A stretch of DNA of 64,000 nt from an uncultured Bacteroidota bacterium (lineage in GTDB: Bacteria; Bacteroidota; Bacteroidia; Chitinophagales; Chitinophagaceae), in NCBI GenBank assembly GCA_903835005.1, contig CAILLK010000027.1, forward strand, positions 1 through 64,000, read 5' to 3'. The notes under the pieces were generated by a model. That model was not told the origin of the DNA, did not search any database, and saw only the letters and a list, made by a program, of their open reading frames with translations. The position numbers and the translations under genes were made by a program. Within the stretch, counting starts at the first letter, position 1; each line of letters starts with the position of its first letter. Of the stretch, positions 7,205 to 22,897 are shown in pieces.

Positions 7205-7247
7205 ATATTGATACGCCAGTGAAGTCTCAACCTAAATTATTTATAAA

Positions 7248-8552
7248 ATGAGTAACCCCAAAGAGGCAATCAAGGAAAAAAGCATGGTGATCCAGAAGGA
7301 TATGCTGGCCAATCTTTTTACCGAACTAAGCAATGCTAAAGCAAACGGGAAAAAAGTGGTGTACACCTTTGTACCGGGCAACCTTACCGAACTGATACTG
7401 GCAATGGATATGCTGCCCGTGTACCCGGAGATCAATGCGTTGCAATCGGGTATGCGCAAAAAATCAGGTTCTTATATCAAGGATGCTGAGAAAATGGGGT
7501 TTTCGGAGGATGTATGCACGTATGTGAAATGCGATATAGGTATGATGCTGAATGGCAATATAGGCCCGACTGGTGAGAAGTTGCCTGATCCGGATCTGCT
7601 GTTGCTGAGTTATACAGGCTGTTTTACTTTTCTTAAATGGTTTGAAAACCTAGAGCGGCTCTATCCTGGTGTAGAGATTGCTATGCTGCACACTCCTTAC
7701 CAGGAGGACGGTGTAATTACTGATGACCAGATAAGGTATATGGTAAAACAACTGCAGGAAGATGTGATACCCAAGATGGAAAAAGTGACCGGTAAAAAAC
7801 TGGATTACAACCGTCTTGAAAAAATGCTGGGGAATGCGGCCAAAGCAGAAGAACTATGGGTGCAAGTACTGGAAACCGCCAAGCACAAGCCATCACCGAT
7901 TGATTCTTATTTTGCCGGTGTATATTATATGGGGCCACTGAATACGGCTTTCCGGGGCACAGAAGAAGCTGTTCAGTATTATGAAGAGCTATTAAAAGAG
8001 GTTACTGACAGGATGGACCAAAACCTGTGCCCAGTAACGCCAGAGGGTGATATGAAGGAAGAAAAATTCAGGCTGGTGGTGGAAGGCCCGCCAAACTGGA
8101 CCAACTTCCGCGAGTTCTGGAAAATATTCTATGATATGGGCGCTGTGATAGTGGCCTCTACTTATACTAAGGTTGGCGGTCTTTATGATCAGGGTTTCCG
8201 TCATGAATCCGGCAAACCACTGGAAAGCCTTGCCAAATACTGCATGGGGTGCTACACTAATCTTAATCTGCCTCAGCGTGTAGACCTCATTGAACACTAT
8301 ATAAAAGAGTACAAAGCCGATGGATTCCTGATCAATTCTATAAAGAGTTGTAATTCATTTTCGGCAGGGCAGCTGCTGATGATGCGGGAGATAGAACAGC
8401 GTTGCAGTGTGCCGGTAGGGTTTATTGAAAGTGACCTGGTAGATCCCCGTTATTTCTCTTATGCCAATATTAAAAACAGGCTGGAGTCTTATTTCCAGAT
8501 GCTGGGGCAGCGCAAGGTGATACTGGCACAGGAAGAAGAGGTGGCAGCTTAA
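7248..8552 (+). CDS. bcrB: Benzoyl-CoA reductase subunit B (class I)
   Basis: A 434-residue partner of BcrC in the catalytic heterodimer, the usual BcrB length. HgdA/HgdB-like motifs are clear: VYTFVPGNLTELILAMDMLP (39-58), Cys90/Cys95 (SEDVCTYVKCDIG), Cys125 (SYTGCFTF), Cys332/Cys335 (YCMGCYTNLNLPQRV), Cys368 (KSCNSFSAGQLL) and the ESDLVDPRYFS segment near residue 394. These Cys would hold the active-site [4Fe-4S] cluster and neighbours. The fold is shared with 2-hydroxyacyl-CoA dehydratases, so that activity is the main alternative, but had/oah/dch in the same operon settles the call. Spacing is 43 bp from bcrC and 26 bp to bcrA. Confidence 0.9.
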   Translation: MSNPKEAIKEKSMVIQKDMLANLFTELSNAKANGKKVVYTFVPGNLTELILAMDMLPVYPEINALQSGMRKKSGSYIKDAEKMGFSEDVCTYVKCDIGMMLNGNIGPTGEKLPDPDLLLLSYTGCFTFLKWFENLERLYPGVEIAMLHTPYQEDGVITDDQIRYMVKQLQEDVIPKMEKVTGKKLDYNRLEKMLGNAAKAEELWVQVLETAKHKPSPIDSYFAGVYYMGPLNTAFRGTEEAVQYYEELLKEVTDRMDQNLCPVTPEGDMKEEKFRLVVEGPPNWTNFREFWKIFYDMGAVIVASTYTKVGGLYDQGFRHESGKPLESLAKYCMGCYTNLNLPQRVDLIEHYIKEYKADGFLINSIKSCNSFSAGQLLMMREIEQRCSVPVGFIESDLVDPRYFSYANIKNRLESYFQMLGQRKVILAQEEEVAA

Positions 8553-8578
8553 TTATGAACCAATAGAAACTTTAACTG

Positions 8579-10000
8579 ATGAGCAAATATTATCTCGGAA
8601 TTGATCTCGGATCAACAACCTCAAAAGCGGTAATCATCAATGAGCAAGATGAGATTATTGGCCGCGGTATTACCAACACCCGTGCCAACTATTCGGTAGC
8701 GGCAGATATCGCACGGATGGAAGCTATATACAATGCGCGTTTTTCGATTCTGAAGAAAAACCTTGCGAAGGAGATAGCATCTAAACCTCAATACCGTAAA
8801 TACCTCAGCGATTTGGAGAACGTATTTCAATATGAGCAGTTTAAGGTAAGGATTGATAAGCTGGGCGATGAACTGCTCAAGACCTGTTACAATCATTTTG
8901 AAGGGGAGCGCAGGTTAATGATGATTGATCATCTGAGACTGATACGCAGGGCTATTAAGCCGAAGATCAAACACATGTATATCTATGAAAACCTGGGTGA
9001 TAAAAACCAGTTCTTCAGGGATATTGTTTCTGAAAAATACAATGAAGAAGTAAACAAATTTGATATTGGTCTTTTTGAGCCGCTGATGACGATCTGGGAT
9101 AAGAGCATTACAGCAGCTGAGAATGAAGTTGTGCAGTTTGAGTTCGGCGCCTTGATTACCCAGGCTATGGACCTGCTCAAAGAAAAATATGAGCAATTGC
9201 CTGACCATTCGGAGAATATACCGATTGAAGCAGATAAGAATTTTGATGCGGAAATGTATTTGCTGAAAGGTGATTTTCAAAACGTATCGGAATCGCTTCG
9301 GGAGCGTATAGATGAAGTAGCCAATATTGATTTCAACATAGAAAACATGACTGGTACGGGATATGGTCGTGCACTACTGCCTTTTCCGCAGGATTGTATC
9401 CGGTCTGAAATTTTGTGCCATGCCTTTGGTGCCCATGCAGTGTTCCCTGAGACACGCACCGTGCTTGATATTGGTGGACAGGACACTAAGGCAATACAGG
9501 TAGATAAGTATGGACTGGTAACCAGTTTCCAGATGAACGACCGTTGTGCAGCAGGCTGCGGCAGGTACCTGGGTTACATAGCCGATGAAATGAGTATCTC
9601 ACTCAACGAACTGGGCCCGCTGGCTATGGAGGCAGAGAAAGAAGTAACTATCTGTTCTACATGTACTGTATTTGCGGGAGCAGAACTCCGGGAACTGACC
9701 AATATGGGCGAAAAGAGAGCAGACATTCTGGGTGGGTTGCATAAGGCAATAATCATGAGGGCAATGTCGCTTATAGCCAGGTCGGGAGGTGTGTTTAATG
9801 AATTCACCTTTACGGGCGGTGTTGCAAGAAATCAGGCGGTAATCAAGTACCTGACTCAACTGGTTAAGGCCAATTACGGCGATAACATCAAAATCAACAT
9901 CCACACTGATTCCATTTTTATGGGGGCCTTGGGTGGTGCGATGTTCGCGCGCAGGAATATTAAGGCGGACCTGCCGAGTGCAAAGAAAGTTATGGCTTAA
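8579..10000 (+). CDS. bcrA: Benzoyl-CoA reductase ATPase subunit A (class I)
   Basis: The larger of the two ATP-hydrolysing electron-activation subunits. It is an ASKHA-fold protein: phosphate loop LGIDLGSTTSKAV (6-18), DIGGQDTKAI (297-306) and FTGGVARN (411-418). Cluster-binding Cys are in NDRCAAGCGRYLG (C323, C327) and ICSTCTVFAGAEL (C359, C362). One [4Fe-4S] is expected to be shared with BcrD. Residues about 50-250 form a long helical insert between the ATPase halves, as in Thauera-type BcrA; the Azoarcus-type BzdQ lacks it, so this is a bcr-type enzyme. At 473 residues it is somewhat longer than the roughly 48-kDa Thauera protein. The gene lies 38 bp before bcrD. Confidence 0.92.
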   Translation: MSKYYLGIDLGSTTSKAVIINEQDEIIGRGITNTRANYSVAADIARMEAIYNARFSILKKNLAKEIASKPQYRKYLSDLENVFQYEQFKVRIDKLGDELLKTCYNHFEGERRLMMIDHLRLIRRAIKPKIKHMYIYENLGDKNQFFRDIVSEKYNEEVNKFDIGLFEPLMTIWDKSITAAENEVVQFEFGALITQAMDLLKEKYEQLPDHSENIPIEADKNFDAEMYLLKGDFQNVSESLRERIDEVANIDFNIENMTGTGYGRALLPFPQDCIRSEILCHAFGAHAVFPETRTVLDIGGQDTKAIQVDKYGLVTSFQMNDRCAAGCGRYLGYIADEMSISLNELGPLAMEAEKEVTICSTCTVFAGAELRELTNMGEKRADILGGLHKAIIMRAMSLIARSGGVFNEFTFTGGVARNQAVIKYLTQLVKANYGDNIKINIHTDSIFMGALGGAMFARRNIKADLPSAKKVMA

Positions 10001-10038
10001 ATGGTGAACAATTATTTCTGAAACCGAAAACAAATTTT

Positions 10039-10878
10039 ATGTCTGAAACAGTATATACAATGGGTATTGACGTGGGGAGCAACTTTATCAAGCTGGTATT
10101 GATGGAGTATTCTGCCCATCCACGGTTGATAGACAAGCATACCGAAAAAATCCGCAAGCGCAACCCTACGCAGGTAGCCGATGAAATGGTGCAAATTATG
10201 CTGGACAAGCATAACCTGAAATATGAAGATGTGGTGTACCTGGCATCTACCGGCGAAGGCGACCTGGTAAAACGCAAACGTGGCCATTTCTATGGTATGA
10301 CTACCCATGCCCGTGGTGCCAACTTCTTTTATCCTGAAGCAAGAACAGTGGTAGATCTGGGTGCATTGTATGTACGTTGTATACGAGTGAATGAAGGATC
10401 AAGAGTGGAGGACTATAAGATGACAGGTCAGTGCGCATCTGGTTCAGGCCAGTTTCTTGAAAATATTTCGCGCTATCTGGGCTTAAGCATTGAGGAAGTA
10501 GGAGAGGTTTCGCTGCAGGCGTCCAACCCCGAAATTTCGTCCGGTATCTGTGCTGTGCTAGCTGAGACAGACGTGATCAACATGGTTTCCAGAGGCATCA
10601 AGACGCCCGACATCATCAAGGGTATTCACCTTTCCATTGCTTCGCGCGTCATTAAATTACTGGGTTCTCTGAAGGCGGAATCACCTATTGTACTGACTGG
10701 CGGTATGGCGCTCAACACGGGAATGATTCAGGCGATTGACGAAACATTAAAAGAAGGGTCTAAGAAATTCGTGATCAAAGCTCATCCTGATTCTATTTAT
10801 GCCGGCGCTATAGGCGCAGCATTATGGGGTGGCTACCGTCATTTCAAACTAAAAGAGAAACAGGCAGTTTTAGCATAA
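10039..10878 (+). CDS. bcrD: Benzoyl-CoA reductase ATPase subunit D (class I)
   Basis: The small ATPase subunit, 279 residues and full length. ASKHA motifs: MGIDVGSNFIKLV (8-20), VVDLGALYVR (104-113, a variant of the DIGGQD loop, as is usual in BcrD) and LTGGMALN (219-226). Single cluster Cys are at C132 (GQCASGSGQFL) and C171 (GICAVLAETDVI). With BcrA it forms the two-ATP-per-two-electron module that drives electrons from ferredoxin to BcrBC. No ferredoxin gene lies in the operon, so the electron donor must come from elsewhere. Eleven bases separate it from the ligase gene. Confidence 0.9.
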   Translation: MSETVYTMGIDVGSNFIKLVLMEYSAHPRLIDKHTEKIRKRNPTQVADEMVQIMLDKHNLKYEDVVYLASTGEGDLVKRKRGHFYGMTTHARGANFFYPEARTVVDLGALYVRCIRVNEGSRVEDYKMTGQCASGSGQFLENISRYLGLSIEEVGEVSLQASNPEISSGICAVLAETDVINMVSRGIKTPDIIKGIHLSIASRVIKLLGSLKAESPIVLTGGMALNTGMIQAIDETLKEGSKKFVIKAHPDSIYAGAIGAALWGGYRHFKLKEKQAVLA

Positions 10879-10889
10879 AACAATATACT

Positions 10890-13019
10890 ATGGAAGCAAC
10901 GCTTCTTGAGCCGGTAAGAAACAGAGTTCACGAACTGGATTATTTATTCCAACCCAGATCAATAGCCATTATTGGTGCTTCTCAGAAAGAGCTGTCTATT
11001 GGGAATGTAATCATTAAGAACCTGGTTCATTATGGTTATACGGGTGAGATATATCCTATTAACCCTAAAATGGATGAGATTAGAGGCATTAAGGCTTATC
11101 CAGCTATAGCTGATGTTCCGGGAGAGATTGATCTGGCACATGTAATCATCCCTTCAAAAATGGTTCCTCAGGCGATTGAGGAGTGCGGAAAGAAGGGGAT
11201 AAAAGCTGTTATCATCAACTCGGCTGGCTTTAGTGAAATGGGAGAAGAGGGGATAGCATTACAAAAAGAGTTTCTGGCTATTGCAAAAGAATATGGTATA
11301 CGGATATTCGGACCTAACTGTCAGGGTATTATCAACACAGATCCTGAATACAGGGCCTATTGTGATTTTACTTTTACATTTCCCAAGCCAGGTCATATTT
11401 CCATTGCTGCTTTGAGCGGCGGGGTTGGGGCTTTCCTGATGCAGAGTCTTTTTGACCTGGAAATAGGTATGAGGCTATATGCATCAAATGGTAATGCCTG
11501 CGATATTTCGATCCCCGACGTTATAGAATATTATGGCGAAGATGCACAGACTAAAGCCATTATCCTGTATACCGAAGGCCTTTCCAACCCACTGGAGTTT
11601 ATGGAAGTGGCTAAGAAGGTGACCAAAAAGAAACCGATCCTCGCCATGAAGGCCGGCCGTACCGAAGAGGGAGCTAAGGCAGCAGCTTCTCATACCGGTT
11701 CTCTTGCGGGTGTGGATATTTCTACAGAGCTGATTTTTGAAAAAACAGGCATTCTCACTTTCCACAATGAAGAGGAGCTCTGCCAGGTAGCAATGGCATT
11801 TGCTACACAGCCTTTCCCTAAAGGCAACCGGGTAGGTATCATTACCAATACCGGAGGACCTGCGGTAATAGCCACTGACGAATTGGTTAATTCGGGATTG
11901 CATTTACCACAACTTTCCGACAGGGCAAAAGCTATACTTCAGGAAACCATGCTTCCTGAAGCAACAATAGGCAACCCGATTGATGTGGTAGCCACAGGCG
12001 GGGGTAAGCACTTCAGGAGCGCTATGGATGTGCTTATGGAAGAAGATACCATCGATTCCATTTTTATCAATTTTGTAACCGCGCCTTTTACAGATACAAA
12101 TGAGGTAGCCAGGAATATAGTGGAAGTCAGCCAGCTTAGAAAGAAGCCAATTGTCTGCAATTTCATGACGAACATGAGCCTTGAACGCTTTCAGGAAACT
12201 GCTAAAATATTGAAGGATGGTGGGGTGCCTTGTTATAGTTTCCCAACTACTGCAGCAAAAGCGCTGGGGGCTTTATACCGATACGGTAAAACACGCTCCA
12301 GGGCAATTGGTGAACCAAAAGAATTTCATGGGATAAATTACAAAATAGCTGAAGTAGCCATTAAGCAGGCTAAAAAGGAAGGCTTGTCCTATCTATGTGC
12401 CGACCGCGTTTATGAAGTACTAGCCGCGTATGGTATTCCGGTTGCCAAATGGTGGCTTGCCAATGATACAGAAGAAGCAGTGAATGCCGCCGGCAACATT
12501 GGTTACCCGGTGGTACTGAAAGCAGAATCAGCCGCTTTGGTTCATAAGAGCGACAAAGGTGGGGTTATGATTAATCTGAAAACTGCTGACGAAGTGAGGG
12601 CGGCGGCTGAGAAAATGAAAGATTCGTTTGGCTCTAAAGGGCTGAAAATTTTGGTTCAGCAGTTTTTGCCCGGCGGTAAGGAACTGATTGCCGGGGTCAG
12701 TACCAAGCCAGGATTGGGCCACCTTGTCATGTTTGGTTTGGGCGGCATTTATGTAGAAGTTTTGAAGGATGTGGTTTTCAAAATTGCTCCGGTAACAGAA
12801 ATAGAAGCAGGCGAGATGTTAGGCTCCATTAAAGCAGCCAGACTGCTTGATGGAGTGAGAGGGGAGAAGGGTATTAATAAAGAAAAGGTTATTGACATTA
12901 TTCAGCGCATCTCTAAACTGGTTACCGACTTCCCCGAAATAAAGGAAATGGACATGAACCCGATTATTGCGCTGGGTGATCAGGTATTTGCAGTAGATGC
13001 AAGGATTAAGATAGACTAA
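10890..13019 (+). CDS. ADP-forming acyl-CoA synthetase (acetate-CoA ligase type), alpha-beta fusion
   Basis: A 709-residue fused enzyme of the ADP-forming acetyl-CoA synthetase family, interconverting acyl-CoA + ADP + Pi and acid + CoA + ATP. In order: CoA-binding Rossmann domain (FQPRSIAIIGASQ, residues 20-32), succinyl-CoA-ligase-like domains with the phospho-His loop AASHTGSLAG (His268), and a C-terminal ATP-grasp domain (PVVLKAESAALVHKSDKGG). I chose ATG 10890, 11 bp after bcrD; an upstream in-frame ATG lies inside bcrD and is unlikely. Within this operon it could conserve energy by releasing acetate or another acid from CoA, or activate an aromatic or alicyclic acid. Substrate is not predictable from sequence. 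Confidence 0.88.
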   Translation: MEATLLEPVRNRVHELDYLFQPRSIAIIGASQKELSIGNVIIKNLVHYGYTGEIYPINPKMDEIRGIKAYPAIADVPGEIDLAHVIIPSKMVPQAIEECGKKGIKAVIINSAGFSEMGEEGIALQKEFLAIAKEYGIRIFGPNCQGIINTDPEYRAYCDFTFTFPKPGHISIAALSGGVGAFLMQSLFDLEIGMRLYASNGNACDISIPDVIEYYGEDAQTKAIILYTEGLSNPLEFMEVAKKVTKKKPILAMKAGRTEEGAKAAASHTGSLAGVDISTELIFEKTGILTFHNEEELCQVAMAFATQPFPKGNRVGIITNTGGPAVIATDELVNSGLHLPQLSDRAKAILQETMLPEATIGNPIDVVATGGGKHFRSAMDVLMEEDTIDSIFINFVTAPFTDTNEVARNIVEVSQLRKKPIVCNFMTNMSLERFQETAKILKDGGVPCYSFPTTAAKALGALYRYGKTRSRAIGEPKEFHGINYKIAEVAIKQAKKEGLSYLCADRVYEVLAAYGIPVAKWWLANDTEEAVNAAGNIGYPVVLKAESAALVHKSDKGGVMINLKTADEVRAAAEKMKDSFGSKGLKILVQQFLPGGKELIAGVSTKPGLGHLVMFGLGGIYVEVLKDVVFKIAPVTEIEAGEMLGSIKAARLLDGVRGEKGINKEKVIDIIQRISKLVTDFPEIKEMDMNPIIALGDQVFAVDARIKID

Positions 13020-13030
13020 ATTGACTACCA

Positions 13031-14248
13031 ATGTATAAGATAGAATCAGCAAAAACTTTGAAGGAGATAATGGCCAATTATTTCCTTGGAATGAAGGACC
13101 CCAATAAGAAATATGCATGGTGCACGAGTGTTGGCCCGGCAGAATTGCTCCGTTCTTTTGGGTTTGAAGTTCATTTTCCCGAAAATCATGGAGCATTGCT
13201 GGGGACATCCCGCACTGCCGGCGACCTGATACCCGAAACAGCCAAGCTGGGATACTCTAACGATATCTGCTCTTATCTTACTGCTGATATTGGTTCTTAC
13301 TTAAAGAAGGAAACCCCTCTTACAAAACACTACGGATTGGATGGCCCGCCAACTCCAAGCCTGATAGTATATAATACGAATCAGTGCCGGGAAGTACAGG
13401 ATTGGTTTAATTACTATGGTAAGGAACTGGGCGTGCCGGTGTTTGGCATCACACCTCCCCGCCATATGGATGAAGTAGAGCAGGAAGAAATTGATGATGT
13501 GGCACAGCAATTCAAAAATATGATTCCCCTGTGTGAGCAGATAAGCGGCCAAAAGTTCGATATTGATAAATTCAGAGAAACACTCAGGCTAAGTAAAGAA
13601 GCAACCGACCTGTGGAAACAGGTTTTGTGGACAGCCAGGGTTTCTCCAGCCCCTATAAGTTTTTTCGATGCCACGATTCATATGGGACCGATTGTGGTAT
13701 TGCGCGGTACTCAGATAGCCAAGGATTACTATAAAATGCTGCTCGGAGAGTTGCAGGGTAATGTAAAGAAAGGTATCGGATTTCTTGATGAAGAAAGGTG
13801 CCGCATTTACTGGGATGGCATGCCTATATGGGGTAAACTAAGGCCGTTGTCTGAATTGTTTATTCAGAATAAAGCAGCCATAGTTGCCTCCACTTACTGC
13901 AACAGTTGGGTGTTTGATGCCTTTGATGAACGCCATCCGTTTGAGTCGTCGGCTAAAGCCTATACCGAAATTTTCATTAACAGAAGCGAGAGTGCCAAAG
14001 AGCGGATACTATCCAGGCTGGTAAAGGACTTCAATATTGATGGTGTTATTTTTCACGATGCAAAAACCTGTGCCAATAACAGTAACTCCCGGTTTGGCAT
14101 GCCACAACGACTAAGGGAATCACTGGGAATACCAACATTGGTAATTGAGGGTGATTTGTGTGATCTCAGGTTCTATTCAGAGGGGCAGAGCATTACAAAA
14201 ATGGAAACATTTATAGAGCAGATAGAAAGTTCAAAAGTATTCAATTAA
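13031..14248 (+). CDS. Orphan 2-hydroxyacyl-CoA dehydratase / BcrB-C-like subunit
   Basis: A 405-residue member of the HgdB/FldC/BcrB-BcrC fold family, distinct from the bcrB and bcrC products of the same operon. Recognisable segments: WCTSVGPAELLRSFGFEVHF (30-49), Cys80 (SNDICSYLTADIG), Cys119 (NTNQCREVQDWF), Cys347 (HDAKTCANNSNSRFG) and IEGDLCDLRFYSEGQ (372-386), a dehydratase-type C-terminal motif. Cys80, Cys119 and Cys347 are likely [4Fe-4S] ligands. Known dehydratases need two such subunits plus an activator; only one is present here, followed 559 bp downstream by an activator-domain fusion. It may work as a homodimer, pair with BcrB or BcrC, or be a third electron-accepting subunit. No substrate can be named. 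Confidence 0.8.
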   Translation: MYKIESAKTLKEIMANYFLGMKDPNKKYAWCTSVGPAELLRSFGFEVHFPENHGALLGTSRTAGDLIPETAKLGYSNDICSYLTADIGSYLKKETPLTKHYGLDGPPTPSLIVYNTNQCREVQDWFNYYGKELGVPVFGITPPRHMDEVEQEEIDDVAQQFKNMIPLCEQISGQKFDIDKFRETLRLSKEATDLWKQVLWTARVSPAPISFFDATIHMGPIVVLRGTQIAKDYYKMLLGELQGNVKKGIGFLDEERCRIYWDGMPIWGKLRPLSELFIQNKAAIVASTYCNSWVFDAFDERHPFESSAKAYTEIFINRSESAKERILSRLVKDFNIDGVIFHDAKTCANNSNSRFGMPQRLRESLGIPTLVIEGDLCDLRFYSEGQSITKMETFIEQIESSKVFN

Positions 14249-14268
14249 GCAATACAAAATCGTATGCC

Positions 14269-14748
14269 ATGTATGTGCCTGTTGAAAATATGGAAATGAC
14301 ACTACCCAATGGGCTATTGGTGGACCGGGATTTATTGGAACACGAAATAAAGAAAATATGCCATTATGTTCACCATGTAGTATTTGTGGTAAAGGATAAT
14401 TTATTGCTGGCAGCAATGATTTTTCCAAACAGGTCATTATTTTCCAAACCTGATTACAAGTTATCGCCTGAAGAAGGTTGCTTTTGTCCCAGGAGCATTC
14501 CTGAATTAGGTAAATGCCTTGCTGGCTGCATGAATTCATTAAATCATAAACTCATATCAGGCTATGCAAAAGTTAATGCTGCTGTAATTGTTAATTCTGA
14601 ATTATCTGTTATTGATGGTACACTTACTACAGATTTAAAACCGGTTGTAAATACAGTAGCCGAAAAATATAGAAATCATATCCGGAATTTATTTGGAGAA
14701 CTTCTGCCGGTACAGGAAGAAGACTTTAAAATGATTTTGGAAAGCTAA
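14269..14748 (+). CDS. Free-standing C-terminal domain of an ANL (acyl-CoA synthetase) protein with a Cys cluster
   Basis: A 159-residue protein that resembles only the last third of long-chain AMP-forming acyl-CoA ligases: a VDRDLLEHEIKKI opening, VVFVVKDNLLLAAMIFPN, then ISGYAKVNAAVIVNSELSVI and GTLTTDLKPVVNTVAEKYR, which parallels the ligase ending with TPTLKLKR. The conserved catalytic Lys position falls at Lys124. No AMP-binding N-domain is encoded here. Between the two halves lies a Cys-rich insert, EEGCFCPRSIPELGKCLAGC, with Cys71, 73, 83 and 87 (CxC-x9-CxxxC), which could bind a metal or Fe-S cluster. The gene sits 20 bp after the orphan dehydratase subunit. Family resemblance is fair; function unknown. 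Confidence 0.6.
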   Translation: MYVPVENMEMTLPNGLLVDRDLLEHEIKKICHYVHHVVFVVKDNLLLAAMIFPNRSLFSKPDYKLSPEEGCFCPRSIPELGKCLAGCMNSLNHKLISGYAKVNAAVIVNSELSVIDGTLTTDLKPVVNTVAEKYRNHIRNLFGELLPVQEEDFKMILES

Positions 14749-14807
14749 AGAATGAATTGAAATGAGCCTTGCCAGGAATACATAATCTAACCTGTTTAAT
14801 TGAATTG

Positions 14808-16661
14808 ATGGAAGATTTCAGTAAAATAAAAGTAGGAATAATAGGCCTGGGGCCTGTGGGTATGATTCTTGCCGTGAAACTGGCCGAGGCAGGTTGTGAT
14901 GTGGCTATCTGTGATAAGGATGAATTCAAGCTGAAGAAAATCAGGGAAGAGGGAATAGTGTTGCAGAATATGTTTCAGTCTGTTACCAGGTTTCATAAGG
15001 TCTACAGCTCATTTGCTGATATGGCTCCGATGGATCTTGACTATCTGGTGTTTTCTTTGAAGTCCTACCATACTCCCGGGGCTGTACGGGAAGCAGAAAT
15101 ACTGAAGTCAGATAAACTCACTGTTATCTCTGCCCAGAACGGAATTGATATAGAAAGCCTGCTGGTGCCATCTTTTGGTGAGCTGAGGTCGATGAGAATG
15201 ATCATCAATTATGCCGGCAACCTTGTGGCTCCGAATACAGTGAGGGTATCATTTTTTACACCACCTAATTACATTGGGCCAATTGATGATGCAAGGACAG
15301 AACAGGCTGAGCTATATGCTGCTATTCTGAATAGCGTTGGGTTTACTACTCAAAACGTAGATTCATTTGAACTTGTAAAAAGATCCTGGGAGAAAACTAT
15401 ACTTAATTCTTCGCTCAGCGCTTTGTGCGGAGTAGGCAGGCTCACAATGGCTGAAGCAGTAGCCGATGCAGATACATGTGAACTTGTAGAGCAGATTATT
15501 AATGAAGGGATAGAAGTAGCTGAAAAGGAAAAGATCAGGTTCCCGGATGACTTTGTGAGGAAGTGTATGCGTTACCTCAAGAACGGCGGAGATCACTTCC
15601 CGTCAATGGCAGTGGATATCATCAACAACCGGCATACAGAAATTGATTACTTCAACGGCAAGATTGTGGAGTATGGAAAGAAGCATTACGTAAAGACTTC
15701 GCTCAACCTTTCTTTCACCAATATGGTGAAGGCAATGACCAACAAGAATATCCTTTCGCGGATGCCGGGTGTAACAGGAGAAGTAAATAAGAAGCTAATC
15801 AATAAAGGTCTGGTGGATAAAGAAAAATCTGCACTTTATTATAAAGATCAGAATTGCTTTTTAGGTATTGATCTCGGCTCTGCATATACCAAGTTTACTG
15901 TGATAGATGATAAGGGAGTTCCGGTATTCCGATATTTGCTGCAGACCCTGAATAAAGACCGGCAGGCAATGAAAAATGTGCTGCAGGCTATTCATGGCGT
16001 ATTTAAAATAAAATACAGTTGCGCTACCGGCTATGGCAGAAAACATTTCACTGATACTGATATTATAAAGACGGAAATCAATTGCGGCGCTGCCGGGGCA
16101 TCCCAATATTTCAGCGGTGCAAAAAACCTCATCGATATAGGGGGTGAAGATATCAAAATCGTGCAGTGCGATGCAGAGAATCATGTCTCCAACTTTTACA
16201 TGAATGATAAGTGTGCAGCGGGTACAGGCGCTTTCCTATCGGAGATAGCAGAACGAGCAGGAATCAGCGATGCCGATATGAGTAGCCTTGCATCGCTTTC
16301 GGAATACGACAAAGAGTTGAATAGTTTCTGTACGGTATTTGCCAAAACAGAAATCATGAACTGGGTGTTTGATGGTATGCCTGTGCAGGATATTGCCAGA
16401 GGTATCTATATATCTATAGCCAATAAGGTGGCCAAGATGAAGATGATGCCTGGACTACCTGTGTATATTATCGGTGGTGTTATTGCGTACCATCCGTATC
16501 TGAGTACAATCCTGTCTCAGAAGTTCAATAAAGAAATTAAAATGGTGGACAATCCGCAATACACAGTGTCATTTGGTGCAGCCACGATTGCCCGGCAAAG
16601 CTGGGTTGAGCCCGGAAAGGAAGCAGTGGAATTGGGAAAAGAAGCAGTAACTATTCATTAA
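14808..16661 (+). CDS. Fusion: ketopantoate-reductase-like dehydrogenase + BcrA/BadF-type activator ATPase
   Basis: A 617-residue two-domain protein. Residues 1-310 are a PanE/ApbA-type NAD(P)-dependent reductase: GLGPVG (13-18), WEKTILN with catalytic-type Lys196 and Asn200, Ser266-x3-Asp270, and the HTEIDYFNG signature (276-284). A linker of about 40 residues follows. Residues 350-597 are a dehydratase-activator ATPase: FLGIDLGSAYTK (351-362), LIDIGGEDIK (441-450), NDKCAAGTG (466-474, Cys469), SFCTVFAKTEI (Cys508) and YIIGGV (553-558). Each protomer offers two Cys, enough for a shared [4Fe-4S] in a homodimer. I start at ATG 14808; a TTG at 14769 is less likely. Such a fusion could couple 2-oxoacid reduction to dehydratase activation, which is inference. 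Confidence 0.85.
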   Translation: MEDFSKIKVGIIGLGPVGMILAVKLAEAGCDVAICDKDEFKLKKIREEGIVLQNMFQSVTRFHKVYSSFADMAPMDLDYLVFSLKSYHTPGAVREAEILKSDKLTVISAQNGIDIESLLVPSFGELRSMRMIINYAGNLVAPNTVRVSFFTPPNYIGPIDDARTEQAELYAAILNSVGFTTQNVDSFELVKRSWEKTILNSSLSALCGVGRLTMAEAVADADTCELVEQIINEGIEVAEKEKIRFPDDFVRKCMRYLKNGGDHFPSMAVDIINNRHTEIDYFNGKIVEYGKKHYVKTSLNLSFTNMVKAMTNKNILSRMPGVTGEVNKKLINKGLVDKEKSALYYKDQNCFLGIDLGSAYTKFTVIDDKGVPVFRYLLQTLNKDRQAMKNVLQAIHGVFKIKYSCATGYGRKHFTDTDIIKTEINCGAAGASQYFSGAKNLIDIGGEDIKIVQCDAENHVSNFYMNDKCAAGTGAFLSEIAERAGISDADMSSLASLSEYDKELNSFCTVFAKTEIMNWVFDGMPVQDIARGIYISIANKVAKMKMMPGLPVYIIGGVIAYHPYLSTILSQKFNKEIKMVDNPQYTVSFGAATIARQSWVEPGKEAVELGKEAVTIH

Positions 16662-16670
16662 TCTTACTAT

Positions 16671-17936
16671 ATGCAGGCATATCATAACAAGGAAAAGGGG
16701 TTTGGAATAATCTACGATGATATTTTTCTGGTGAACGGGGCGCGTACTCCTTTTGGTAAGTTGTGCGGCACCCTGGCTAATATTTCCCCCACTGATTTGG
16801 GAATTTATGCCTGCCGGGCGGCATTGGCAAAGGCAGGTGTTTCGCCAGGTGATATTGACCAGGTGATGATGGCAAACATCGGTCAGTGTTCTTACGATTC
16901 CTATTTCCTTCCGCGCCATGTAGGACTCTATTCCGGTGTGCCTGAAAAAGTACCTGCAGTAATGCTGCAAAGAATATGCGGGTCGGGATTTGAGACCATC
17001 ACAGCAGGTGCTGATCAGATTACATTAGGTAAGGCAGATGTTGCCCTTTGCGGTGGCACGGAGAGTATGTCCCTTGCGCCAACAGTAAGTTATGGAAACC
17101 GCATGGGTTATGCTTTGGGCAAGGTAGAGTTCCGGGATTTTCTATGGGAAGCGCTCAATGATACTGCTGGTGTACCTATGGGTTGCACTGCCGAGAATGT
17201 GGCAAAGCAATATGGCATCACAAGGGCTGAAACCGATGAGTTCGGGAAGTTGTCGATGGACAGGGCTATCGCGGCAACTGAGCGGGGATTTCTGAGGGAT
17301 GAAATTACGCCTTTGAATAGCGCCGTATTTGAAGCCGCAGGTTGTAAACCCAGGAAAGTTAACCTTCCCAAGAAGGTTATTGATTTTGTAACTGATGAAA
17401 ACATCAGGACCTCCTCACTCGAAATTATGTCAAAACTGCCAACGGTATTTGATAAGGAGGGTGTGCAGACAGCAGCAAATTCGAGTGGTATGGTTGATGG
17501 AGCCGCAGCGGCAATTGTGGCCCGGAAATCATACATCGACGCGAAAGGAATTAGCCCCTTGTCGCGCATTGTGGCGTCTGCTACAAGTGCGGTCGACCAT
17601 AAAGTTATGGGCCTTGGCCCGATACCTGCTATCCGTCTTTTGCTTGAAATGACCGGCTTAAGAATTGAGGATATCGGCCTTGTAGAAATTAACGAAGCAT
17701 TTGGCGCGCAGTTCATCGGTTGTGAAAGAGAACTGGGACTGGACAGGAATATATGCAATGTAAATGGCGGCGCCATTGCTTATGGGCATCCCCTGGCGGC
17801 TACGGGTTTACGCCTGTCAGTCACACTTTCCAGGGAGATGACCATTCGGAATGTAAAGTATGGTATTGCTTCAGCCTGTATTGGCGGCGGACAGGGTAAT
17901 GCAATCTTATTTGAGAATATAAATCTAAGACAATGA
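16671..17936 (+). CDS. Thiolase (acetyl-CoA acyltransferase), probable 3-oxopimelyl-CoA thiolase
   Basis: A 421-residue type-II/degradative thiolase. Nucleophile Cys103 lies in MLQRICGSGFETI; the C-terminal pair appears as NGGAIAYGHPLAATG (His) and ACIGGGQGNAI (Cys). NEAFGAQF is also conserved. The N-terminus is about 15 residues longer than usual. In this operon the expected reaction is cleavage of 3-oxopimelyl-CoA with CoA to glutaryl-CoA and acetyl-CoA, the last step after ring opening; acetoacetyl-CoA thiolysis is an alternative. It begins 9 bp after the fusion gene, and its TGA overlaps the had ATG (ATGA), so translation is coupled. Confidence 0.88.
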   Translation: MQAYHNKEKGFGIIYDDIFLVNGARTPFGKLCGTLANISPTDLGIYACRAALAKAGVSPGDIDQVMMANIGQCSYDSYFLPRHVGLYSGVPEKVPAVMLQRICGSGFETITAGADQITLGKADVALCGGTESMSLAPTVSYGNRMGYALGKVEFRDFLWEALNDTAGVPMGCTAENVAKQYGITRAETDEFGKLSMDRAIAATERGFLRDEITPLNSAVFEAAGCKPRKVNLPKKVIDFVTDENIRTSSLEIMSKLPTVFDKEGVQTAANSSGMVDGAAAAIVARKSYIDAKGISPLSRIVASATSAVDHKVMGLGPIPAIRLLLEMTGLRIEDIGLVEINEAFGAQFIGCERELGLDRNICNVNGGAIAYGHPLAATGLRLSVTLSREMTIRNVKYGIASACIGGGQGNAILFENINLRQ

Positions 17937-19000
17937 CGGACCAGAAAATATTTAAATGGCAGATGACCGAGTTGAACAAAGAGTTCACACTGGTTGAGCA
18001 GAAGATTCCAGTTCTTAAGGATGGCGAAGCGCTAGTAAAAGTTGCAGGTTGTGGTGTGTGCCACACCGATATCAGCTTCTGGCATCATGGCGTGCAAACC
18101 AAGCATGCATTGCCCCTTACATTAGGCCACGAAATAAGCGGCAAGGTAGTGAACGGACCTGATGAATGGCTGAATAAAAATGTGATTATACCAGCTGTTC
18201 TTCCATGTGGCGAATGTGAATTGTGCCGTAAGGGCCGCAGCAATATCTGCCGCAACCAATTGATGCCTGGCAATGACTTTGATGGTGGGTTTGCATCTCA
18301 TATTGTTGTGCCTGCGGGATTTCTTTGCCCCGTACCAGATAAAGTGCTGAAAAAGTATAGCCTAGACCAGCTTTCTATTATAGCTGATGCTGTCTCGACA
18401 CCCTACCAGGTAATGAAGAAGGCCGAGATAGAACATGGCGATGTAGCAATTGTAATAGGTATAGGTGGGGTAGGTATTTATGGCGCACAGATCGCTAAAA
18501 TCATGGGCGCTAAAGTAATAGCACTGGATATTAATGATGATAAGCTGGCCCTGGCTAAGGAGAATGGCATTGATGCCACACTTAATATTAAGGGTCTGGG
18601 AATTAAGGAAATCAAAGATGCAGTAAAAGGGATAGTAAAGGAATTAAAAGCCTCGCCCTTCTGCTGGAAAATATTTGAAATGTCAGGCACAAAGGCAGGG
18701 CAGGACACAGCTTTCAATTTGATCACTTTTGCATCAACGCTATCGGTGGTTGGTTTCACAATGGATAAGGTAGAAGTGCGCCTCAGCAATCTGATGGCCT
18801 TCGATGCTAAACTTATAGGTACATGGGGCTGCAAGCCGGAATTATATCCGGAAGTGGTGCAGCTTGTGGCTAATGACCAACTGCATATTGATGAGTTTGT
18901 AGAGATCTTTCCTATGTCGCAGATAAATGAAGTTTTCAGAAATACCCTCGATCATAAATATATTAAACGGTCAGTGCTGGTACCAGATTTTAATAACTAA
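17933..19000 (+). CDS. had: 6-hydroxycyclohex-1-ene-1-carbonyl-CoA dehydrogenase
   Basis: A 355-residue zinc-dependent medium-chain dehydrogenase oxidising the ring hydroxyl after dienoyl-CoA hydration, with NAD. Catalytic-zinc side: GCGVCHTDISFWHHG (Cys43, His44) and LTLGHEISG (GHE 65-67). The structural zinc site has Cys92, 95, 98 and 106 (PCGECELCRKGRSNIC). The Rossmann motif is GIGGVGIYGAQIAKIMGAK. Overall pattern and neighbours (oah, dch) identify Had and not a general alcohol dehydrogenase. It overlaps the thiolase gene by 4 bp and precedes oah by 9 bp. Confidence 0.88.
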   Translation: MTDQKIFKWQMTELNKEFTLVEQKIPVLKDGEALVKVAGCGVCHTDISFWHHGVQTKHALPLTLGHEISGKVVNGPDEWLNKNVIIPAVLPCGECELCRKGRSNICRNQLMPGNDFDGGFASHIVVPAGFLCPVPDKVLKKYSLDQLSIIADAVSTPYQVMKKAEIEHGDVAIVIGIGGVGIYGAQIAKIMGAKVIALDINDDKLALAKENGIDATLNIKGLGIKEIKDAVKGIVKELKASPFCWKIFEMSGTKAGQDTAFNLITFASTLSVVGFTMDKVEVRLSNLMAFDAKLIGTWGCKPELYPEVVQLVANDQLHIDEFVEIFPMSQINEVFRNTLDHKYIKRSVLVPDFNN

Positions 19001-19009
19001 ACTATATAT

Positions 19010-20110
19010 ATGAGCATCCTGAAGAATCACGATCTTGTATCGGTTGACTTTAAAGAGATCCTGTTTGAAAAAAGGCCTTGCCCGGACAGGGACGGACGTG
19101 CAATTGAGGGGCTTTTCAATGCCTGGATCATACTAAATAATCCCAAGCAGTATAATTCCTATACCACTGCGGCTATAAAGGAAGTTATTCTTGCATTCCG
19201 CACTGCATCCAATGACCGGAGTGTTGTTGCTGTGGTACTTACTGCAGTGGGCGATAAAGCATTCTGTACCGGTGGCAACACCAAGGAATATGCCGAATAT
19301 TATTCAGGAAATCCGCAAGAGTATTCTCAGTATATGCGGCTTTTCAATGATATGGTGTCGGCCATATTGATGTGCGAGAAGCCGGTTATCTGCCGCATCA
19401 ATGGCATGCGGGTAGGTGGCGGACAGGAGATAGGCATGGCCTGCGATTTCAGTATAGCCAGCGATATGGCACGCCTCGGCCAGGCTGGACCTAAGCACGG
19501 AAGCGCACCAATTGGTGGTGCTACCGATTTTCTGCCTTTGTTTGTAGGTGTAGAACGGGCTATGTACTCACTTACTTTGTGCGAACCATGGTCAGCACAC
19601 CAGGCTTACTATTATGGCGTACTGACGGATATAGCACCGGTTCTGAAACTGGAGGGTAAGTTCATTGTAAACCCTATGGTGGTTACCGATAGAATTATGG
19701 ATGAGTATGGGCGTATCACTTTTGGTTCTGCCAAGACCGGGGAGGAACTATCAAAGGCTAAAGAGATAGTTGCTAAGGCCGAAGTTGATTTGTCAATGCT
19801 CGATAAAGCCGTGAATAACCTCATAGCCAAGATACTGCATACATTCCCTAATTGTATGAACAAAACCATCAGCGAGGTGCGCAAATTTAAGCTTGAGCAC
19901 TGGGATAAGAACAAAGAAGGCAGCCGTGAATGGCTTGCGTTGAATATGATGAGCGAAGCCAAAGCAGGTTTCCGTGCATTTAATGACGGTCCGAAAGAAA
20001 ACAGGGAAGTAGATTTTGTTTTGCTTCGTCTTTTACTTGCTCAGGGCCATGAGTGGAACGAAGAACTACATCATAAAATTTCTCCACAATATCAGAATCA
20101 AACTGTTTAG
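19010..20110 (+). CDS. oah: 6-oxocyclohex-1-ene-1-carbonyl-CoA hydrolase (ring opening)
   Basis: A 366-residue crotonase-fold enzyme that adds two waters and hydrolytically opens the ring to 3-hydroxypimelyl-CoA. It has the features that set Oah apart from ordinary enoyl-CoA hydratases: the long N-terminal section with KRPCPDRDGRAIEGLFNAWI, an oxyanion-hole pair in DKAFCTGGNTKEYAEYYSGN and INGMRVGGGQEIGMACDFSI, then GQAGPKHGSAPIGGATDFLP. Its length is close to that of Thauera Oah. This is the diagnostic marker gene of the benzoyl-CoA route, so its presence confirms the pathway assignment. It is 6 bp before dch. Confidence 0.93.
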   Translation: MSILKNHDLVSVDFKEILFEKRPCPDRDGRAIEGLFNAWIILNNPKQYNSYTTAAIKEVILAFRTASNDRSVVAVVLTAVGDKAFCTGGNTKEYAEYYSGNPQEYSQYMRLFNDMVSAILMCEKPVICRINGMRVGGGQEIGMACDFSIASDMARLGQAGPKHGSAPIGGATDFLPLFVGVERAMYSLTLCEPWSAHQAYYYGVLTDIAPVLKLEGKFIVNPMVVTDRIMDEYGRITFGSAKTGEELSKAKEIVAKAEVDLSMLDKAVNNLIAKILHTFPNCMNKTISEVRKFKLEHWDKNKEGSREWLALNMMSEAKAGFRAFNDGPKENREVDFVLLRLLLAQGHEWNEELHHKISPQYQNQTV

Positions 20111-20116
20111 TTTTTT

Positions 20117-20890
20117 ATGGAAAAAATCAAGATCAATTTTCATCATGGTGGTGCCGTTGCCCAGATTATAATGGAGAATGGTAAAGGCAATGTAATTGAT
20201 AGCGGTATGATGGCTGAATTGTTGATTGCATTTGAAGATTTCAGATCAATGGGTGAATTGAAACTGATTACTTTTGAAGGGGCAGGTAAGCATTTCTCTT
20301 TCGGAGCGAGTGTAGAGGAGCATCAGAAAGAACAGGCGGCAGAAATGATACATTCATTCCATAACCTGTTCCTGAAGTTAAAAGATCTTGCAATACCCAC
20401 ACTTGCCAAAATTAACGGACAATGCCTGGGTGGCGGCATGGAACTGGCTATAATGTGCAATTTTCTTTTTGCCGAAAAAACTTCAAAGTTCTGTCAGCCT
20501 GAGATAATATTGGGTGTTTTTCCGCCTCCCGCCTCTATAATTCTTGCCGAAAAAATAGGCCTTGCAAAGGCAGAAGAAATAATTATTACCGGTATGACTT
20601 TTACCGGAGAGGAAGGTAAAGATTTCGGGTTGATCAATGATGTTTTCGACGACGTGATAGAATTGGAAGCAGAGGTGAATAAGTTTATCGATCATCACAT
20701 TTTACCAAAGAGCGCTTCATCATTACGGTTTGCAGTGAGAGCATCGCGGGTGAAATTCAACCGTTTGCTTGAAGATTTTTTGCCACTGCTTGAAGAGATG
20801 TATGTAAAGGAACTAATGAACACAAGGGATGCCAATGAAGGCATTATCTCATTTTTGGAGAAAAGAAAACCTGTTTGGAATAATTCTTAA
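20117..20890 (+). CDS. dch: Cyclohexa-1,5-diene-1-carbonyl-CoA hydratase
   Basis: A 257-residue crotonase-family protein with the shape of dienoyl-CoA hydratases. It opens with INFHHGGAVAQIIMENGKGN, has the first oxyanion-hole region FEGAGKHFSFGASVEEHQ, the second INGQCLGGGMELAIMCNFLF, and a distinctive FCQPEIILGVFPPPASIILA where hydratases usually read PE-x-x-LG. It adds water to the diene to give 6-hydroxycyclohex-1-ene-1-carbonyl-CoA. Position directly after oah and had supports this over a generic enoyl-CoA hydratase. It is followed 9 bp later by the bifunctional gene. Confidence 0.88.
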   Translation: MEKIKINFHHGGAVAQIIMENGKGNVIDSGMMAELLIAFEDFRSMGELKLITFEGAGKHFSFGASVEEHQKEQAAEMIHSFHNLFLKLKDLAIPTLAKINGQCLGGGMELAIMCNFLFAEKTSKFCQPEIILGVFPPPASIILAEKIGLAKAEEIIITGMTFTGEEGKDFGLINDVFDDVIELEAEVNKFIDHHILPKSASSLRFAVRASRVKFNRLLEDFLPLLEEMYVKELMNTRDANEGIISFLEKRKPVWNNS

Positions 20891-20899
20891 TCAATTTTT

Positions 20900-22897
20900 A
20901 TGAAGACCATCAAGACAGTAGGTATCGTGGGTGCGGGTACAATGGGAGCAGCTATTGCCCAGAAATTTGCACAGGAAAATTTTATTGTAATCCTGGCCGA
21001 CAGGGAGGAAAGTTATGTTCAGCGCGGTATTGCAAATATTACCAGAATGCTTCAGGAAGGTGCAGACAGGAAAGTCTTTACCCCGGAGCAGGTAGATAAT
21101 TATCTGTCCAATATAATGGGCTCTCATCATCTTACGGACCTGAAGAAATGTGATCTCATAGTCGAAGCTATTTTTGAGGATTTTAATGCAAAAACAGATT
21201 TGTTTAAATCGCTCTCTGCCATTGTGGATAAAGATACTATAATTGCTACCAATACGTCTTCCTTCTCGGTTACCGAACTGGCTGAATCTATTACTCATCC
21301 GGAGCGATTTGTGGGGTTGCATTATTTTTATCATGCTGCCAAAAACCGCCTGGTTGAAATAATCCCCGGCGAAAAAACATCGACGGAAACAATTGAATCG
21401 GTAAAGGCTTTCTCGATGTTATCGGGCAAGGATGCCATCATCTGCCGGGATTCTTATGGATTTGTGGTTAACCGATTCTTTGTTCCATGGCTCAATGAGG
21501 CCGCCCGGCTGCTTGATGAACATATCGGCAACATAGCCACTATAGATGATGTGTGCATGAGGATTTTTGGGATTGGCATGGGGCCCTTTGCATTAATGAA
21601 TGCAACTGGTGTGCCGGTAGCTTACCATGCAGAGAAAACACTCGAAAGGTTTGGCAGTTTATATGCTGTTAGCGGGAAATTGAAAGATCAGGCCTTATCT
21701 GGCACGCAATGGGACCTTTCTGGTGATGTAATGCCCGATGAGCATATTGTAAAGGAAATTACGGAAAGGATGCTTGGGGTGGTGTTTTTTGTTTGCACCC
21801 AGTTGCTGGATGAAAAGGTTTGTGAGGCAGTAGATATTAACAAGGGGGCAAAGATAGGATTGAAATGGCGCAAAGGCCCTGTAGAGCTCATGCAGCAATA
21901 TGGTGAAGACAAGGTGTGGTACCTGGTACACAAAATAGCAGGCATGTACCAGATGCAAATTCCTGCATCAATAGGATCTGGTCATTGGCAAATGCAGTTT
22001 GTTGATCTGGAAAGAAAGGGAAAAGTAGCTGTCATTACCATGAACCGGCCCGAAGACCTGAACGCACTGAATGAAGAGGTAATGAAGCAACTGAATGCTC
22101 AGTTTGATCTGGTTAACAAGGACCCGGCTATTGAAACTGTATTTATCACGGGGGCAGGCAAGGCATTTGTGGCCGGGGCTGATATTAAGTTCTTTATCAA
22201 AAACATAAAGGCCAATAAGATTAAGGATATAGAGACTTTCACTGGTTTCGGGCAGGAGGTATTTAAAAAGATAGACGAATCGCAAAAGAAAGTGGTAGCG
22301 GTGCTCAATGGACTGGCACTTGGTGGTGGCCTGGAACTTGCGCTATGTGCCGATGTAATTCTTGCATTGCCTAAAGCACAAATGGCATTCCCGGAAACGG
22401 GGATTGGCATTTATCCCGGGCTTGGCGGTACGCAGCGCAGTGCCATTAAAATTGGTAAACCACTGAGTAAGTACCTTATACATACCGGTAAAATGCTGAG
22501 CGCTAAAGACGCGCAGGAAATAGGCCTCGTAGATAAAATTATATCTACAGATGAACTCTTTTCAATGATATCCGGAAAGGTTCCGGTTCCTGAAAATTGT
22601 AGTGTCCAGTTGAGTGCTAATTGGAAGATCATTGATCAGTTTTTCAGTAACAACCCAATTGAAAAAGTACTGGCCCACCAGTACGCTGTAGATGGTATGA
22701 ATACTGAAGATGCAGAAAAAATTTACAAGACCCTAAAAAGAAAAGCGCCCATTGCCCTTTATACAGCGGATAAGCTGATAGAAGAAGCCAAAGGCTGCGA
22801 GTCTGAACTGAAGTACCTGGATAAGATTTTCTCCACTTCAGATGCTTTACTTGGCCTGAGTTCTATTGGTAAGCAGGTGGAGTTTAAAGGGAGTTAA
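20900..22897 (+). CDS. 3-hydroxyacyl-CoA dehydrogenase / enoyl-CoA hydratase fusion
   Basis: A 665-residue bifunctional enzyme. Residues 1-300 form the NAD-binding 3-hydroxyacyl-CoA dehydrogenase (VGIVGAGTMGAAIA at 7-20, VGLHYFYHAAKNRLVEIIPG, DSYGFVVNRF), with a second C-terminal dehydrogenase domain to about 365. From about 372 it is a crotonase domain: VAVITMNRPEDLNALN, TGAGKAFVAGADIKFF, LNGLALGGGLELALCADV and FPETGIGIYPGLGGTQ. Dehydrogenase first and hydratase second is the reverse of FadB/FadJ. In the operon it should oxidise 3-hydroxypimelyl-CoA to 3-oxopimelyl-CoA, and may handle crotonyl-CoA further on. It is the last gene before the terminator. Confidence 0.9.
   Translation: MKTIKTVGIVGAGTMGAAIAQKFAQENFIVILADREESYVQRGIANITRMLQEGADRKVFTPEQVDNYLSNIMGSHHLTDLKKCDLIVEAIFEDFNAKTDLFKSLSAIVDKDTIIATNTSSFSVTELAESITHPERFVGLHYFYHAAKNRLVEIIPGEKTSTETIESVKAFSMLSGKDAIICRDSYGFVVNRFFVPWLNEAARLLDEHIGNIATIDDVCMRIFGIGMGPFALMNATGVPVAYHAEKTLERFGSLYAVSGKLKDQALSGTQWDLSGDVMPDEHIVKEITERMLGVVFFVCTQLLDEKVCEAVDINKGAKIGLKWRKGPVELMQQYGEDKVWYLVHKIAGMYQMQIPASIGSGHWQMQFVDLERKGKVAVITMNRPEDLNALNEEVMKQLNAQFDLVNKDPAIETVFITGAGKAFVAGADIKFFIKNIKANKIKDIETFTGFGQEVFKKIDESQKKVVAVLNGLALGGGLELALCADVILALPKAQMAFPETGIGIYPGLGGTQRSAIKIGKPLSKYLIHTGKMLSAKDAQEIGLVDKIISTDELFSMISGKVPVPENCSVQLSANWKIIDQFFSNNPIEKVLAHQYAVDGMNTEDAEKIYKTLKRKAPIALYTADKLIEEAKGCESELKYLDKIFSTSDALLGLSSIGKQVEFKGS

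Follow-up and report, generated by a model that had tools for sequence, protein, structure and literature searches.

Why should an operon that already encodes a class I benzoyl-CoA reductase carry a further protein of the same superfamily, together with an activase to go with it? The question is raised by a 64,000-nucleotide stretch of DNA, hereafter the window, from an uncultured member of the Chitinophagaceae (Bacteroidota; GenBank assembly GCA_903835005.1, contig CAILLK010000027.1, positions 1 to 64,000, forward strand). An initial annotation, made from the sequence alone, drew attention to three genes at 13031-16661, which proved to be intact open reading frames (ORFs) on one strand. We call them X, Y and Z and list them here with the CoA ligase gene in front of them, which is a member of the same conserved unit:

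10890..13019, + strand: ADP-forming acyl-CoA synthetase, 709 amino acids from ATG 10890 (Pfam Succ_CoA_lig and ATP-grasp_5)
13031..14248, + strand: X, alpha-type (HadB-like) subunit of a 2-hydroxyacyl-CoA dehydratase, 405 amino acids (PF06050, HadB model, AlphaFold2 fold)
14269..14748, + strand: Y, stand-alone Cys-rich C-terminal domain of an AMP-forming (ANL) ligase, 159 amino acids (alignment, model fold)
14808..16661, + strand: Z, PanE/ApbA-type 2-oxoacid reductase fused to a dehydratase activase (ApbA/PanE and BcrAD domains)

We consider it probable, with ample room for doubt, that X and the activase half of Z together make up an (R)-2-hydroxyacyl-CoA dehydratase that has no dedicated beta subunit and feeds units derived from aryl-lactates to benzoyl-CoA. 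Computation shows the genes and their domains, the residues that are conserved, how the genes are linked and that X co-occurs with the ring hydrolase. A search of open-licence papers found no description of this gene set.

The conserved unit and its proteins

A genome scan for X kept 80 of 127 loci, at which the X proteins are 52-96% identical to that of the window. The record titles include Bacteroidetes, Ignavibacteria, Thermoplasmata, Desulfomonile/Desulfobacteraceae, Planctomycetota, Gammaproteobacteria and Acidobacteria. At the 56 well-flanked loci (at least 3 kb on both sides), PanE lies within 6 kb of X in 51, an activase in 54 and a CoA ligase in 53, and all three are present at 43 of the 43 near loci. 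Since it was found in dozens of genomes, the gene set is not a chance grouping. It also recurs without bcr genes inside it: X, ligase, PanE and activase occur together in this way in Thermoplasmata, in a gammaproteobacterial locus (L097) and in an archaeon record (L087). The Thermoplasmata loci L098, L101 and L102 have no bcr genes beside the set, and in their genomes (G076, G078 and G079) a Bzd-type pair lies 12 to 18 kb from an X match on the same contig. The shared function that the initial annotation read from the tight packing of three genes is thus upheld as far as a conserved unit goes, and its restriction to three is not, as the CoA ligase belongs to the unit too.

X is a member of the HGD-D family (PF06050, 210 bits, cut-off 28.4). 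It had been described as an HgdB/BcrC-fold subunit, which is right as to the fold and wrong as to the BcrC class: X belongs with the alpha-type dehydratase subunits, such as HadB and BcrB. Among the NCBIfam models it scored best with HadB, a one-substrate model, at 207.8 bits and below the curated cut-off of 750, followed by BcrB (155.7 bits, cut-off 486.55); BzdO gave 84 bits (cut-off 448.6). An AlphaFold2 model made from 25 X sequences (pLDDT 88, pTM 0.90) matched HadB best (PDB 3o3m; Z-score 46.4, 2.0 Å, 393 aligned residues, 28% identity), with Z-scores of 42.8 for BzdO, 40.0 for MbdO, 33.8 for DCCP and 32.2 for HadC. In a 56-row tree, X formed one clade (100/100) on the alpha side, with DCCP and the beta subunits on the opposite side; the branching order of X relative to HadB, BcrB and BzdO is unsettled.

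Five cysteines, C31, C80, C119, C290 and C347, are shared by all 80 full-length X proteins, among them that of the window (an 81st row, L076, was dropped as short). Cluster ligands of the reference proteins were taken from PMC11971306. By alignment, C80 and C119 fall on BzdO C95 and C128 and E51 falls on Glu65, while C347 falls on BzdO C380 by way of the BzdN C327 column, the BzdO stretch being incomplete there. C80, C119 and C347 are the predicted cluster ligands of X, in agreement with the cysteine ligands that the initial annotation had credited to it, and these alpha-type positions are in place in a protein that could be modelled well (pLDDT 88). Neither of the outcomes that the initial annotation had named as refuting it, genes never occurring together elsewhere and a subunit lacking a cluster site, was encountered. 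HMMER and MAFFT placed the region of BzdO Trp46 differently; we used the MAFFT alignment, in which the following proline is in register. In the same alignment the column of BzdO His131 holds V122 in X, Val also in HadB and Phe in BcrB. Of the six cysteines that in BzdN correspond to the ligands of an [8Fe-9S] double cubane, C73, C100, C263 and C327 have equivalents in X, with C290 coinciding with the distal ligand C263. C36 is off by one residue (C31) and the family alignment holds no equivalent of C293, so that a full double cubane is not supported.

Z had been called an activator fusion, and so it is. The PanE half spans about 14808-15810 and the activase half about 15834-16661; Z scores 153.6 bits with TIGR00745 and 160.7 bits with TIGR00241, both over cut-off. 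The TTG at 14769, listed as the start, is probably not the true one and ATG 14808 (617 amino acids) fits, because close orthologues (L016-L022) are 616-618 amino acids long; orthologue comparison also suggests 10890 as the start of the synthetase (listed ORF 10824). The functional lysine and glutamate of PanE are present in 63 of 63 aligned rows, and the two functional cysteines of the activase in 69 and 68 of 70. Among the PanE hits, 48 of 62 are fused to an activase in one ORF and 14 are separate. Structures named 2-dehydropantoate 2-reductase were matched by the PanE part, 2ew2 first, with 8wl1 and 3wfi, which we take to be D-mandelate dehydrogenase, among the next. X is accompanied by one activase half, that in Z, and bcrC and bcrB have bcrA and bcrD as their partners.

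Y is the Cys-rich ligase fragment that it was thought to be. It matched no Pfam or NCBIfam model, and blast and alignment show it to be homologous to the C-terminal part of full-length AMP-forming ligases; its model (pLDDT 90) is most similar to the C-terminal part of carboxylic acid reductase adenylation domains (Z-score 12.8). The adenylation domain is absent from it. Short Y proteins (<250 amino acids, the window's included) have C31, C71, C83 and C87 in 41 of 41 rows and C73 in 40. The C-terminal domain of ANL ligases carries a lysine motif, and this catalytic stretch is kept in the Y of the window and missing in the six other short Y proteins of the displayed alignment. A census of the 80 X loci, in which the 232-residue piece at L075 ends at a contig edge and some loci are short contigs, gave a Y-homologous ligase of at least 400 amino acids at 16, a Y of <250 amino acids at 40 and no Y-like ORF by blast at 24. 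The ADP-forming synthetase shares the locus with short Y in 36 of 40 cases, other X loci have a full-length AMP-forming ligase in its place, and L060 alone has both the long form of Y and the ADP-forming synthetase. The long ligases that were aligned from Bacteroidota, Ignavibacteria, Gammaproteobacteria and the archaeon record L087 have an equal number of cysteines, with altered spacing in the most distant; the four Thermoplasmata ligases do not have that number. Y is the remnant of a ligase, and we infer that its adenylation domain was lost when the ADP-forming ligase took over and that its Cys domain was retained for another purpose. This is the puzzle that Y poses: the adenylating part has gone and the cysteines have stayed.

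Linkage to benzoyl-CoA degradation

In the window, the unit is embedded in a same-strand run at 6026-22897 (+) that begins with bcrC, bcrB, bcrA and bcrD and, after the synthetase, X, Y and Z, continues with thiolase, had, oah, dch and a fusion gene. The host genome is 5.9 Mb and 99% complete. The other genes of the run are:

6026..10878, + strand: bcrC, bcrB, bcrA and bcrD, class I benzoyl-CoA reductase (TIGR02263, TIGR02260 and TIGR02261 over cut-off)
16671..17936, + strand: thiolase, directly after Z (Pfam; TIGR01930 383.7 bits, over cut-off)
17933..20890, + strand: had, oah and dch, ring modification and opening (TIGR03201 and TIGR03200 over cut-off)
20900..22897, + strand: fusion of 3-hydroxyacyl-CoA dehydrogenase and enoyl-CoA hydratase (the halves match both kinds of model, none over cut-off)

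The models of BcrC, BcrB and BcrD are over cut-off and BcrA is under its own (438.6 bits, cut-off 578), as is dch (TIGR03189, 215 bits, cut-off 292.5). The synthetase found its best NCBIfam model in 4-hydroxybutyrate--CoA ligase, with 591.8 bits and under the cut-off of 1300. A thiolase follows Z at many related loci.

X goes together with the ring hydrolase (TIGR03200). Among 392 genomes of the window's phylum with at least 90% completeness, X was found in five (at least 682 bits), with matches below 34 bits only in 13 others, and the hydrolase was over cut-off in exactly those five. Among 60 relatives, the window's own genome included, X was found in nine; the hydrolase was over cut-off in seven of these and in none of the 51 others. 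The two exceptions are G003, whose contig ends just past X, and G024, with a partial hydrolase at a contig end. Across the 34 X genomes of all groups, the hydrolase was over cut-off in 27, and G067 has it in two pieces (399.9 and 140.6 bits). X and the hydrolase accompany differing reductases, namely Bcr-type pairs, Bzd-type pairs and, in Desulfomonile (G065, G067 and G077), pairs of neither type. In the phylum of G071 (397 genomes; G071 is titled Gammaproteobacteria), X occurs in G071 only, with a weak 50-bit match in G774. Within the window's genus (G000-G034), X is present in 8 of 35 genomes, the window's own included, as a patchy island, which suggests that the operon has been gained and lost.

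Several unrelated families for 2-hydroxy or 2-oxo acids cluster around X. For example, the genes that come straight after X and the activase at L094 encode a GlcD-like FAD dehydrogenase (405 bits, under the equivalog cut-off of 567.9) and a CCG protein, and no PanE was found there within 6 kb. The neighbourhood of X at L095, which is not an operon and has some genes on the opposite strand, comprises two genes of the lactate-racemase family, an Ldh_2 dehydrogenase, two class III CoA-transferases, an ADP-forming synthetase and a PanE-like gene (29% identity). According to PMC7583248, the lactate-racemase family includes a phenyllactate racemase. At L072, X adjoins two PanE genes that have a HisC-like aminotransferase (325.8 bits, over cut-off) between them. 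L084, L091 and L096 have other, unrelated neighbours. Separately, at L093 an indoleacetamide-hydrolase-like amidase (12670-14196; 583.4 bits, over the cut-off of 532) comes after X and the activase with one small ORF between.

An enzyme similar to 4-hydroxybenzoyl-CoA reductase lies between PanE and activase at L078 (alpha model 876 bits, cut-off 994.55), and a homologue with 79% identity occupies the same place in the single-contig genome G380. The order there is bcrCBAD, ligase, X, PanE, 4-hydroxybenzoyl-CoA-reductase-like enzyme, activase, thiolase, had, oah and dch. The genome of the window has one molybdenum hydroxylase match (PF02738), on another contig (C125). Divergent from bcrC, the window carries genes recognised by eye as SDR, XdhC-like and molybdenum-cofactor NTP-transferase-like (3701-5816, -), which may serve a 4-hydroxybenzoyl-CoA-reductase-like molybdenum enzyme; clusters that match them in length and place were seen at 25, 24 and 30 of 68 loci, some genomes being counted twice. 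A small ORF at 3147-3683 (-), hemerythrin-like by eye, adjoins the operon and has a length-matched cluster at 13 of the 68 loci.

Taken together, the 2-hydroxyacid dehydrogenases, racemases, CoA-transferases, thiolase and 4-hydroxybenzoyl-CoA-reductase-like enzyme near X point to a route of entry that precedes benzoyl-CoA. A ring-derived 2-hydroxyacyl-CoA, one of the substrates suggested at first, is not favoured on these grounds.

A proposed route and its alternatives

We infer which reaction takes place and in which direction, that the substrate is an aryl compound and that X is a homodimer. The PanE half of Z would reduce a 2-oxoacid to an (R)-2-hydroxyacid, which the ligase (that at 10890-13019 here, AMP-forming elsewhere) would convert to the CoA ester. 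The activase would then drive an electron, at the expense of ATP, onto a [4Fe-4S] cluster held by three cysteines of X, and dehydration by X through ketyl chemistry would yield a 2-enoyl-CoA. Chain shortening by the hydratase/dehydrogenase fusion and thiolysis by the thiolase could yield benzoyl-CoA or 4-hydroxybenzoyl-CoA, of which the latter, if formed, would be dehydroxylated by the molybdenum enzyme, and BcrCBAD, Dch, Had and Oah would carry benzoyl-CoA through the ring steps. Judging from gene context, the likeliest substrate would be phenyllactate, 4-hydroxyphenyllactate or both.

Among characterised systems, X resembles HadBC and its activator (PDB 3o3m and 4eht) in its alpha fold, three cluster cysteines, single activase, 2-hydroxyacid neighbours and, by our reading, a CoA-ester substrate. 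It differs from HadBC in that no dedicated beta subunit was seen, the HadB equivalog cut-off is not reached, the activase is mostly fused to PanE, a CoA ligase belongs to the set and the benzoyl-CoA pathway adjoins it. X can be provisionally filed as a variant of the 2-hydroxyacyl-CoA dehydratases without the two-subunit feature, with a putative aryl-lactate substrate. FldBC is a two-subunit phenyllactyl-CoA dehydratase and may be the closest known system with respect to that substrate. Phenyllactyl-CoA dehydratase FldBC is also named in PMC13416013 (2026), where conversion of 2-oxo-3-phenylpropanoate to cinnamoyl-CoA and on to benzoyl-CoA is hypothesised for the benzene degrader BzS1. The chemical sequence is identical to the one proposed here and the dehydratase is left unassigned, with a singular gene 30% identical to FldB among the candidates; there, however, the route was put forward as a hypothesis on benzene, for a strain whose reductase is of class II, and what is shown here is a conserved gene set.

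A number of observations weigh against our proposal. The dehydratases and reductases compared are two-subunit enzymes and X is a lone alpha. At distant well-flanked loci all three partners are present in only 7 of 13 cases (the others are L072, L082, L084, L093, L094 and L096), and L096 has neither PanE nor activase nor ligase within 6 kb. No full ring hydrolase was seen in 6 of the 34 X genomes, G066 (155 bits), G080, G081, G082, G084 and G085, whose completeness is not given. The His131 column is unsure, since HadB has Val in it by MAFFT and alanine at this position according to PMC11971306. In addition, the best benzoate-CoA ligase score in the genome of the window is 234 bits, under the cut-off of 375, and the ADP-forming ligase could serve benzoate.

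That X would be a third HGD-D subunit, and one without a second fold subunit to match, was anticipated correctly: the HGD-D proteins in the genome of the window number three, two alpha (BcrB and X) and one beta (BcrC). Of 11 other X genomes in the phylum, 10 gave exactly three HGD-D matches and G246 gave four (one a 258-residue frame); across 29 X genomes mostly from other groups the number ranged from one to nine. No dedicated beta subunit of X was seen among the part of the HGD-D proteins that was classified, in which the beta-type proteins belong to pairs. G065, G067 and G077 contain a single HGD-D pair, neither Bcr nor Bzd type, with the alpha 31-33% identical to X; this statement is limited to these three, and G063 and G064 hold further pairs, part of them classified. 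Neither-type pairs at L147, L148, L150 and L157 (Desulfomonile) stand in genomes with X and the ring hydrolase.

X may be a homodimer or may use whatever beta subunit the genome offers. In the second case X would stand in as the catalytic partner of the existing beta, BcrC here and BzdN elsewhere, and the two alphas to one beta in the window's genome, as well as the alpha/beta pair present in most X genomes examined, would fit. However, the available betas, whether Bcr-type, Bzd-type or neither, are only roughly 22-28% identical to one another by blast, compared with 52-96% for X proteins, and in four genomes of unstated completeness (G080, G081, G082 and G084) X is the sole HGD-D protein. The low identity among the betas compared favours X acting alone, and we think a borrowed beta unlikely. 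The fullest form of our proposal, which we put forward tentatively and would not bet on, is a homodimeric single-subunit aryl-lactyl-CoA dehydratase in an undescribed oxidative route for phenylalanine and tyrosine that leads to benzoyl-CoA by way of aryl-lactates and CoA esters of the cinnamoyl type, nearly whole in one Bacteroidota operon and spread over bacteria and archaea, with Y as a metal- or Fe-S-binding ligase relic and partner of X.

Less probable still is a set devoted to the reductase, or to benzoate itself, with the ligase as a benzoate-CoA ligase and X as an accessory. The tight operon with bcrCBAD speaks for this, and so does the result that none of the three Bacteroidota genomes tested (G000, G145 and G380) has a benzoate-CoA ligase over cut-off. 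Yet the ligase accompanies X and PanE also where bcr genes are not adjacent, G071 has a benzoate-CoA ligase (689.5 bits, over cut-off) on a contig other than that of the set's ligase, and an accessory function leaves the PanE, racemase and CoA-transferase neighbours unexplained. X was not found in three Pseudomonadota genomes that carry bcrCBA-like genes (G645, G672 and G840); the reductase can therefore do without it, and a role of X as a benzoyl-CoA reductase subunit was marked down on this result. G645 also contains a second reductase-like set (L209, 36.7% identical to MbdO), next to which lie activase-like genes; a Bcr-type set is about 150 kb away on the same contig. X does share the superfamily, the BzdO-type three-cysteine site and, here, the operon with class I benzoyl-CoA reductases (BcrCBAD, BzdNOPQ, MbdONPQ), but it stays under the BcrB and BzdO cut-offs, has no equivalent of His131 and goes with one type of activase, not two, which also tells against the reductase for a substituted benzoyl-CoA that had been considered at first. 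The weakest candidate, a homodimeric low-potential reductase with a double-cubane-type cluster, was prompted by the five invariant cysteines, two of them beyond the alpha-type site, and by the likeness of a single HGD-D protein with one activase to DCCP, which is homodimeric and has the activase DCCP-R according to PMC11971306, but is very improbable in view of the ligand alignment, the score of 54.2 bits with the double-cubane model (cut-off 350) and the placement of DCCP with the beta side of the tree at 100/100, away from the alpha-type X.

Known routes by which aromatic amino acids are degraded anaerobically are reductive, to aryl-propionates, or oxidative, via aryl-acetates. If the proposed dehydratase is real, a route leading straight into benzoyl-CoA would be an added entry to the central anaerobic aromatic pathway, and could explain what supplies the ring-opening operon in G000, G145 and G380. 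It would also offer a minimal system in which to ask whether radical dehydration of 2-hydroxyacyl-CoA needs a second cluster-bearing subunit.

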